Shown: in pieces, positions 29,914 through 32,636 of the stretch
Numbering within the stretch: position 1 is the first letter of the stretch
Layout: each line of letters opens with the position of its first letter
Assembly (NCBI GenBank): GCA_947259355.1
Contig: CAMYMF010000019.1
Span: 3,593 to 43,804, forward strand
Length of the DNA stretch: 40,212 bases
Reading direction: 5' to 3'
Source: an uncultured Nitrospirota bacterium
GTDB taxonomy: Bacteria; CG2-30-53-67
Program-made: the position numbers and the translations under genes
Notes under the pieces: generated by a model
The model's input: the letters and a program-made list of their open reading frames with translations, nothing else
Told to the model about the DNA's origin: nothing
The model's database searches: none

Positions 29914-29999
29914 TTATGCGGGATCGTGGCAGATGCGCCCAGTCATCGGCCGCAGCGCAACACGCGAAGGCCATCGTCAACAAGGGGAACGACAAGCCG

Positions 30000-31112
30000 A
30001 TGGATCTCTATTCCAAACCATTCACCCTCGACCGCATCGTTCGCATCGGCATTCTGGTGGGCGTTGTCTGGGCGCTCGTCTGGCTGATGAAGTATCTGAG
30101 CGATGTCCTCATTCCCTTTGCCGTCGCGCTGCTGCTGGCTTATCTGATCAATCCGTTGGTGGTCATTGTGCAGAAGAAGATCGGAAACCGGGTGGCCGCG
30201 GTGTTTATCAGCCTGGTGAGCGTCCTTGTGGCGATTACGCTGCTGGGCTGGCTCGTGGCGCCTCTGATCGTGGAGGAAGTCTCCCACATGGGCAGGGTGC
30301 TCTCCAATCTCGTGAACAACTCCGACATGGCGGCCCGTGCCGCCAAGCGCCTGCCCCCGGATCTCTGGCAGGCCGTCAAGGATATTGCGGGACGGCGGGA
30401 GGTCCAGGAGCTTTTCAATGCAGACAATATCTGGAAAGTCCTGGAGGTGGTTGCACGGAAGGTTCTGCCCGGCGTCTGGGGGCTGATCACTGGCACCGCA
30501 AGTTTTATCCTGGGCCTCGTCGGGGTGGTGATCATCCTGCTCTACCTGGTCTTTCTCCTGCTCGACTACCAGCGGATCCGCCAGGGGTGGAAGGAGCTCA
30601 TTCCTCCGCCTTACCGGGAAGCCGTGGTGGAATTCATCATGGAATTCGATGGGGCCATGAATCGTTACTTCCGGGCCCAGGCGGCGGTGGCCTCCATTGT
30701 GGGAGTGATCTTTGCCGTGGGGTTCTTCCTCATCGGGCTGCCCCTGGGCATTCTCCTAGGGCTCTTCATCGGCCTTCTGAACATGGTGCCCTATCTCCAG
30801 ATCCTCGGCCTCATCCCGGCCGTGCTGGTCGCCGGGGTGCATGCCGTGGAAACGGGAAGCAGTTTCTGGATGGTACTCGGATTGACCGCGCTCGTCTTCG
30901 TGGTGGCGCAGCTGATTCAGGACGGCCTGCTGGTGCCGCGGATTATGGGGCAGGTCACAGGGCTCAGCCCCGCCATGATTCTGCTCTCCCTATCGATCTG
31001 GGGCAAGCTGCTGGGCATCCTGGGGCTGATTATTGCCCTTCCCATGACCTGTCTTCTGCTGGCCTATTACCGCCGCTTTGTCAGTCCGCTGCAGGCCGCT
31101 GCAAACCCTTGA
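30000..31112 (+). CDS. AI-2E family transporter
   Basis: A 370-residue inner-membrane protein of the AI-2E (PerM/YdiK-like) family, whose members export autoinducer-2 or act as sodium/proton antiporters. Hydrophobic helices start at RIVRIGILVGVVWALVWLMK and VLIPFAVALLLAYLINPLV; a soluble stretch lies near residues 95-150; later helices include IVGVIFAVGFFLIGLPLGIL, the signature GLLNMVPYLQILGLIPAVLV and DGLLVPRIMGQVTGLSPAMI. The start at 30000 is preferred over a longer frame from 29916; AAGGGGAA is 11 bases upstream. Substrate is unknown. It is followed after 54 bases by a palindromic element. Confidence 0.9.
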   Translation: MDLYSKPFTLDRIVRIGILVGVVWALVWLMKYLSDVLIPFAVALLLAYLINPLVVIVQKKIGNRVAAVFISLVSVLVAITLLGWLVAPLIVEEVSHMGRVLSNLVNNSDMAARAAKRLPPDLWQAVKDIAGRREVQELFNADNIWKVLEVVARKVLPGVWGLITGTASFILGLVGVVIILLYLVFLLLDYQRIRQGWKELIPPPYREAVVEFIMEFDGAMNRYFRAQAAVASIVGVIFAVGFFLIGLPLGILLGLFIGLLNMVPYLQILGLIPAVLVAGVHAVETGSSFWMVLGLTALVFVVAQLIQDGLLVPRIMGQVTGLSPAMILLSLSIWGKLLGILGLIIALPMTCLLLAYYRRFVSPLQAAANP

Positions 31113-31166
31113 TGCCTGTGGACAGCGCCGGATCGCCCGGCCCCACGGGAAAAGGAATCTTTCAGT

Positions 31167-31340
31167 CCGAATATTGCATGAGTGATCGTGATGAGGGGCC
31201 GAAGAAGCGCCGTAGGCAAGGCGCAGAGAATTTTCTGGCTGAAGACATATTGCAATATTTCGAAGTCTGGAAATTCTTCTGCAACGCCGCATACGGCGGC
31301 TTATCCGGCCTCGCAATAGACTCACTCATGCAATATTCGG
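31167..31340. repeat. 174-bp near-palindromic element (MITE-like)
   Basis: The two ends are perfect 19-bp inverted repeats: CCGAATATTGCATGAGTGA (31167-31185) and its reverse complement (31322-31340). The interior also folds on itself: the left half (GGGCCGAAGAAGCGCCGTAG then GCAGAGAATTTT) aligns with the reverse complement of the right half (GGCCGGATAAGCCGCCGTAT then GCAGAAGAATTT). The centre is the palindrome ATATTGCAATAT (31247-31258), whose midpoint falls within about one base of the element's midpoint. No reading frame is inside, and no clear target duplication flanks it. It could be a non-autonomous mobile element or a repeated structured sequence. Copy number was not tested. Confidence 0.75.
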
Positions 31341-31382
31341 GTTAGCGGCTTGATTCCCAGCGAATCGCAGGACATCCGATCC

Positions 31383-32636
31383 ATGACCCTGGTGGCCGAC
31401 CTACATATTCACTCCCCCTTTTCGCGATCCACCAGTCCGGCCATGACCCTGGAGAACCTTTTCCAGTGGGCGCAGCTCAAGGGGATCACGCTCATCGGTA
31501 CGGGTGATTTCACCCATCCCTTATGGCAGACGGAGATCCAGAGCAAGCTTGCGCCGGCGCAGCCCGGACTGTATCGGCTCAAACGGCGCCACCGCAGCAC
31601 AGCAGCCGTCCCCGAGGCCTGCCGAAAACCGGTCCGCTTTGTCCTTTCCGGCGAGGTCTCCTGTGTGTATACCCGCGGGGCAAAAAGCCGCAGGGTCCAT
31701 CATCTTATCCTGGCACCCGATTTCGAATCCGTTCGGCGGATTCAGAAAGCCCTGTCGCCCATCGCGAACCTCAGCACCGATGGCCGACCCATTCTCAAGT
31801 TGGACAGCCAGGACCTTCTGCAGATCGTGCTCGACGCTTCGGACGAAAACATGCTCATACCGGCGCATGTCTGGACGCCGCACTACGCGCTGTTCGGGGC
31901 GTTCTCCGCGTTTGACAGCCTGGAGGCGTGCTTCGGATCGTTGGCCTCCGAAATCGTCGCCCTGGAAACGGGGCTGTCCTCAGACCCTCCCATGAACCGA
32001 CGCCTCTCACCGCTGGACCGTTTGACCCTGATGTCAAACTCCGATGCCCATTCCCCGGCCCGGCTCATGCGGGAAGCCAATCTGCTGGACATTAAGCTGT
32101 CGTACCGGGCGCTGCGCGACGGCCTGCGGGCGGGCCCAACGGGGAAGGGCTTTCTCGGCACCATCGAGTATTTCCCGCAAGAGGGGAAATACCACTGCGA
32201 CGGCCACCGCGCCTGCGGTGTGCGCACCACCCCGGCGGAGACGCGCGCGCACAACGGGCGCTGTCCTGCCTGTGGGAAAAAGATCGTCATCGGTGTGCTG
32301 CACCGACTGGAATCACTGGCGGACCGTGCTGCAGACGACGCGCCCACCTTCGGCAAACGTACGCTGCACCTGCTGCCCCTGCAGGAAGTCCTTTCGGAAG
32401 TCCTGGGGGTCGGTGTGTCGAGCAAACGAGTGCAGCAGGCCTACCTGCGCGTGCTGTCCGCGCTGGGCGATGAATTCTCGGTGTTGACTGCCGTGTGCCC
32501 GGCGGCCATTGCAGACACCCACTCTGCGCGGCTGGCCGACGCGATCACGCGGGTGCGGCAAGGGCGGCTGCAGATCTGCCCCGGCTACGACGGCGTCTAC
32601 GGCTCCATCAGGATTTTTGATGAGCTAGAAGCGTGA
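31383..32636 (+). CDS. Endonuclease Q-like PHP family nuclease
   Basis: Endonuclease Q, first found in archaea, cuts DNA on the 5' side of uracil, hypoxanthine or abasic sites. The 417-residue product has the PHP metal motifs LVADLHIHSPFSR, GTGDFTHPLW, LSGEVSCVY, HLILAP, IPAHVWTPHYALFG and MSNSDAHSP. It then has the zinc module at about residues 270-300 (CDGHRACGVRT, CPACGKKI) and the C-terminal helices (QEVLSEVLGVGVSSKRVQQAY). ATG 31383 matches the family opening; a TTG at 31350 is the alternative, and the binding site is weak. It starts 42 bases after the palindromic element and its end overlaps the convergent RlmD gene by 29 bases. Activity is inferred from the family. Confidence 0.82.
   Translation: MTLVADLHIHSPFSRSTSPAMTLENLFQWAQLKGITLIGTGDFTHPLWQTEIQSKLAPAQPGLYRLKRRHRSTAAVPEACRKPVRFVLSGEVSCVYTRGAKSRRVHHLILAPDFESVRRIQKALSPIANLSTDGRPILKLDSQDLLQIVLDASDENMLIPAHVWTPHYALFGAFSAFDSLEACFGSLASEIVALETGLSSDPPMNRRLSPLDRLTLMSNSDAHSPARLMREANLLDIKLSYRALRDGLRAGPTGKGFLGTIEYFPQEGKYHCDGHRACGVRTTPAETRAHNGRCPACGKKIVIGVLHRLESLADRAADDAPTFGKRTLHLLPLQEVLSEVLGVGVSSKRVQQAYLRVLSALGDEFSVLTAVCPAAIADTHSARLADAITRVRQGRLQICPGYDGVYGSIRIFDELEA

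Follow-up and report, generated by a model that had tools for sequence, protein, structure and literature searches.

The window, a stretch of 40,212 nucleotides from a contig of an uncultured Nitrospirota bacterium, contains a short palindromic repeat that, judging from its sequence, is very probably a copy of a dormant or orphaned hairpin MITE of the IS1380 type, mobilised in trans by an IS1380 transposase if its ends are a true guide. The element is real and mobile, and its general kind is well known; a description of hairpin MITEs with these particular ends was not found in the literature searched, the coverage of which was partial, and a text search with the end sequence likewise returned nothing relevant. 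This would account for a repeat of which an uncultured bacterial genus carries dozens to hundreds of copies, and would tie it to a specific transposase family by its ends and its target. The family also provides a data set for testing why many bacterial MITEs are palindromic, a question that can be tested here because mutations that preceded insertion are separable from those that followed it. The first-pass annotation of this DNA had read the element as non-autonomous and mobile, a reading that is supported by the copy number, by target duplication together with empty sites, and by a transposase with matching ends in other bacteria.

Alignment with other copies places the boundaries of the window copy at 31166-31341, and its parts are as follows.

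31166..31341 (176 bp), no strand: MITE copy, an imperfect palindrome, delimited by alignment with other copies
31162..31165, no strand: left target-site copy TCAG, a decayed YTAR (family consensus YTAR at both ends)
31342..31345, no strand: right target-site copy TTAG, a YTAR (family consensus YTAR at both ends)
31166..31185, + strand: left terminal inverted repeat, CCGAATATTGCATGAGTGA preceded by T in place of C; the same word is found at IS1380 ends
31322..31341, - strand: right terminal inverted repeat
31247..31258, no strand: apex palindrome ATATTGCAATAT, which a second palindromic module (up to ~270 bp) adjoins in longer members

The element had been described as a 174-bp palindrome; the palindrome stands, and the extent is corrected to the 176 bp given above, with a T at base 31166 where other copies have C. 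The copy is 74% identical to its own reverse complement over positions 1-174, and its outer arms, 42 bp long, are 79% complementary, in agreement with the claim that the two halves align. The perfect 19-bp inverted ends that had been noted are present (CCGAATATTGCATGAGTGA at 31167-31185 and its complement at 31322-31340), and ATATTGCAATAT lies ~1 base off the midpoint, so that the dyad centre was also placed correctly. A very long hairpin had been predicted, and the folding energy of the strand bears this out (-91.6 kcal/mol versus -53.5 ± 3.8 for 200 dinucleotide shuffles, none of which equalled it; z = -10.0). The flanking TCAG and TTAG represent a decayed 4-bp duplication. The copy contains a read-through frame only and no gene of its own, as had been stated, and no Rfam family matched it up to an E value of 1. 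Upstream, at a distance of 54 bases, lies an AI-2E-type permease ORF (29916-31112); downstream, 42 bases away, an ATG at 31383 opens the frame of a TIGR00375-like protein. Both distances and the transporter had been given correctly, whereas the endonuclease Q named downstream can be upheld only as a TIGR00375-like protein, which scores 174 bits against that model, under its cut-off, TIGR00375 being the group that includes endonuclease Q.

The host genome (G000) is a 3.1-Mb draft in 94 contigs with a completeness of 89.7%, and the single genome of the same genus that was compared, its sister (G001), is also a draft. Searches of the host and its relatives with the element and its ends, a check proposed in the first-pass annotation, revealed a multicopy family in both. 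A DNA search of G000 with the element gave 71 match rows, more than the number of copies because the palindrome matches itself on the opposite strand and longer copies are split. The terminal-repeat pattern, allowing up to two mismatches, occurs at 138 sites (64 + 74) in the host and at 386 sites (193 + 193) in the sister, against 3 + 0 and 1 + 2 matches, respectively, for a reversed-pattern control; these counts correspond to approximately 70 and 190 elements. Among the genomes of other relatives, the only match to the element was a single 72-bp fragment in G003, and matches resembling the terminal repeats in the family-level relatives G002-G005 were set aside as chance, the YTAR flank and the pairing being absent in the loci read. 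The perfect 19-bp terminal inverted repeats are conserved over 48 aligned copies, which define the family ends as CCCGRATATTGCATGAGT...ACTCATGCAATATYCGGG, flanked at both ends by YTAR. Among full-length copies in G000, the two most similar are 97.2% identical (median 86%), and the maximum pair identity in G001 is 95.4%. Because no identical copies were seen among the full-length copies of these two drafts, in which misassembly could hide recent ones, the sequences fit a family that has lost much of its activity.

The target duplication comprises 4 bp with the consensus YTAR (CTAG, TTAG, CTAA or TTAA). Identical 4-mers are found on both sides of 26 of 110 copies from G000 and G001, compared with 13.6 by re-pairing and with none of 5000 shuffles as high, the loci fetched by the GCCCG pattern being biased toward G beside one end; in the G000 subset, which was not selected by this pattern, 14 of 38 copies have an exact duplication. 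YTAR is kept on at least one side in 89 of the 110 copies, and the exact duplication is kept in only about a quarter of copies. In an almost identical copy set, the non-palindromic 4-mers on the left recur on the right in direct orientation in nine cases and as the reverse complement in one. A comparison of loci with and without the element, which had also been suggested, thus yielded a 4-bp target duplication, and it yielded empty sites as well. The locus of the window copy in the sister genome (G001:C160) has the same gene pair separated by ~50 intergenic bases, versus ~234 in the window, and lacks the element, although the junction is not clean, in that the flanks have diverged and the intergenic difference exceeds the element alone. 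Other sites are more clear-cut: a 221-bp copy beside a stop codon (L128) and a 61-bp copy (L123) of G001 correspond to empty sites in the window near 28.77 kb and 9.13 kb, respectively. Two further copies of G001 (L085, 2391-2566; L104, 2429-2604) are each nested inside the inner module of another copy, and their flanks align to the uninterrupted module once one 4-bp target copy is removed, save for a 2-base gap. A single copy at a locus conserved in relatives had been named as the finding that would speak against mobility; the element is instead multicopy, and the sister gene pair is without it.

The partner family is suggested by other bacteria. When 84,980 species genomes were scanned for exact matches to GCCCGRATATTGCATGAGT, 94 stretches were obtained, which besides G001 were located in Gammaproteobacteria, Nitrospinota, a planctomycete and a Pontiellaceae bacterium; in organisms other than the host genus, CTAG or TTAG precedes the exact 19-bp end in 29 of 34 cases, and the exact end was not found in viral contigs. 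At L140 and L145, the family ends enclose complete insertion sequences, 1619 and 1564 bp in length when measured from base 2 of the left end, the encoded proteins of which (437 and 435 aa) score 404 and 408 bits against the IS1380 equivalog model NF033539 (cut-off 180; E about 1e-121). Such complete IS1380-family elements, with the shared 18-bp end and a YTAR flank, are hosted by a gammaproteobacterium and a Pontiellaceae bacterium; the flanks are CTAG and CTAG at L145, and CTAG and TTAG at L140. The family ends are also carried by most IS1380 fragments of a Pseudomonadales MAG, in which one copy has TTAG on both sides, a non-palindromic duplication. The ends of the family are therefore identical to those of IS1380 members at L140, at L145 and in this MAG. 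The same ends also bound hairpin MITEs with unrelated interiors in Nitrospinota (L147, L149, L151 and L173) and Gammaproteobacteria (L134 and L156), with fold z values of -4 to -12. The search for a transposase with matching ends, as earlier proposed, accordingly led to the IS1380 family, in other bacteria and not in the host genome. The IS1380 genes of a class-level relative (G006) were rejected as a partner, the family ends being absent there.

An IS1380-type transposase supplied in trans would cut the element out at CCC...GGG, and the excised element would be inserted into YTAR sites; the long palindrome would belong to the mobile form, and the landed copy would drift neutrally. No match to PF13701 or to the L145 protein was found in the drafts G000 and G001, and the other hairpin-MITE genomes searched also gave no match to PF13701. 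Because no IS1380 transposase was found in the host, the sister or the other MITE-bearing genomes searched, it is from the ends that we infer trans-mobilisation by IS1380, the link being drawn from end identity and target site and not from a partner in the same cell. In a draft of 94 contigs and 89.7% completeness, a lost or unassembled transposase is indistinguishable from a different mobiliser. The mobiliser of the same MITE family might instead be an unrelated enzyme with the same end specificity, as the lack of IS1380 in all MITE-bearing genomes searched, which span several lineages, would allow; however, IS1380 copies in three other genomes have the same 18-bp end and YTAR flanks, and a gene of the other DDE transposase group considered as a host mobiliser (DDE_Tnp_1, PF01609) is absent from both host and sister, so that we regard this alternative as improbable.

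A far smaller chance is given to REP/RAYT-type palindromes, in which a single-strand HUH (Y1) transposase would recognise the hairpin and move it. The repeat is rich in hairpins and Y1_Tnp genes are present in G000 and G001, but family ends are found nearby at only one of ten Y1_Tnp loci, and a 4-bp target duplication combined with symmetric ends common to a DDE insertion sequence is a misfit to HUH chemistry. The one case (G000:C60:17474-18047) is a short Y1_Tnp frame of 90 aa situated ~280 bp from a 110-bp element copy, with no counterpart at the other Y1_Tnp loci. The GTAG-tagged REP palindromes (PMC3733652) with RAYT transposases resemble the element in being multicopy intergenic palindromes, whereas the element duplicates its target, has symmetric ends of the DDE type and shows no general association with Y1_Tnp genes.

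In the GC-rich host genome, YTAR appears to be scarce, with its sites gathered between genes and at stop codons. The window contains 67 YTAR sites versus 415 expected from base composition and 13 CTAG sites versus 146, and a crude ORF model assigns 44% of YTAR sites to ORF interiors, versus 81% of random positions. Insertions would mostly spare genes because of this distribution of YTAR; by the same crude model, 34% of element sites lie inside ORFs versus 77% of nearby random positions. A stop-codon preference beyond the availability of YTAR (31 of 96 copies versus 25% of background YTAR sites, P = 0.07) is not claimed. The 53 intergenic copies occupy 24 convergent, 27 tandem and 2 divergent gaps, compared with 28, 65 and 21 in the baseline (n = 114), a placement that would be expected from the target rule and selection against promoter damage.

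This bias in gap type, together with the very stable fold and with two-sided change in 17 pairs among 48 full-length copies (94.1% of pair cells standard), might also point to a structured RNA or regulatory hairpin, such as a terminator or 3′-end stabiliser, that is maintained by the host and selected at each site. Cells with two-sided changes number 92 versus 37 ± 8 in shuffles, but the shuffles ignore relatedness and most of the changes are subfamily-defining; subfamily changes are matched on both arms (e.g., GTA/TAC versus ACA/TGT). Copy-private mutations at standard pairs (n = 80), by contrast, keep the pair in 20 cases, against 18.8 ± 3.3 expected from the mutation spectrum, and matched private double changes number 1 versus 0.65 expected. 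Since copy-private mutations take no account of pairing, the data do not support a local RNA function, and, with sites that are not conserved between species and no match in Rfam, selection of the hairpin at each site is very unlikely. For the IS1380-type MITE, old changes matched on both arms and neutral private mutations indicate that symmetry is a property of spreading lineages, not of settled copies. This pattern would arise from arm-to-arm copying of quasi-palindromes in replication, and also if mobilisation required symmetry. Considering that hairpin MITEs with one conserved IS1380-type end and unrelated, independently palindromic interiors occur in several phyla, it may be speculated, quite tentatively, that the hairpin is either needed for proliferation itself or a product of it, as when one arm is copied from the other in replication, and has no function after insertion.

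Bacterial hairpin MITEs such as Correia elements and RUP are short, gene-free and mostly intergenic, form long hairpins and carry the ends of an insertion sequence family. The element shares all of these features and differs in its own end sequence, its YTAR target, its partner family and a modular length series from 35 to 640 bp. With complete members of the IS1380 family in other bacteria (NF033539, PF13701), it has in common the 18-bp terminal repeat and the 4-bp YTAR target flank, whereas it lacks a transposase gene, measures 176 bp versus ~1.6 kb and has a palindromic interior. IS1380 transposases are the outgroup in piggyBac trees (PMC10813416), and TTAG and CTAA have been reported as variants of the TTAA-like duplication of piggyBac. 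Eukaryotic piggyBac elements and MITEs resemble the element in their CCC-type termini and 4-bp TTAA-like duplication; by contrast, the element is bacterial and its target is YTAR, most commonly CTAG.

Copies of the family measure ~35 bp (two ends back to back), 86-140, ~175-205, 340-370, 435-485 and up to 640 bp. Next to the apex, the longer members have the second palindromic module (at most ~270 bp). This module lies within a pair of family ends or next to one in almost every stretch read, with the exception of one weak 3-mismatch module end that stands alone in L085. The inner module of long members (L071:17794-18233, L072, L075, L076, L084 and L086) has inverted ends of its own, GTGGYCCTRTTCGCAAATA, and some long members have an extra insert of ~31-36 bp (CTTGTCGCGGCGTAGCATTCTGCGAAGACGG) in one arm only. 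The nested copies L085:2391-2566 and L104:2429-2604 represent another interior type, an unrelated palindromic middle between the same ends, within the long form of the first type. A perfect palindrome, GGGTGCCAGGCAGGCCTGCCTGGCACCC, occurs in different arms of the G000 copies L027 and L029 and may be another small mobile palindrome. In a further host copy (L013, G000:C5:52299-52472), the inner part seems to lie in the opposite orientation to the outer arms, as would result from recombination between the two arms.
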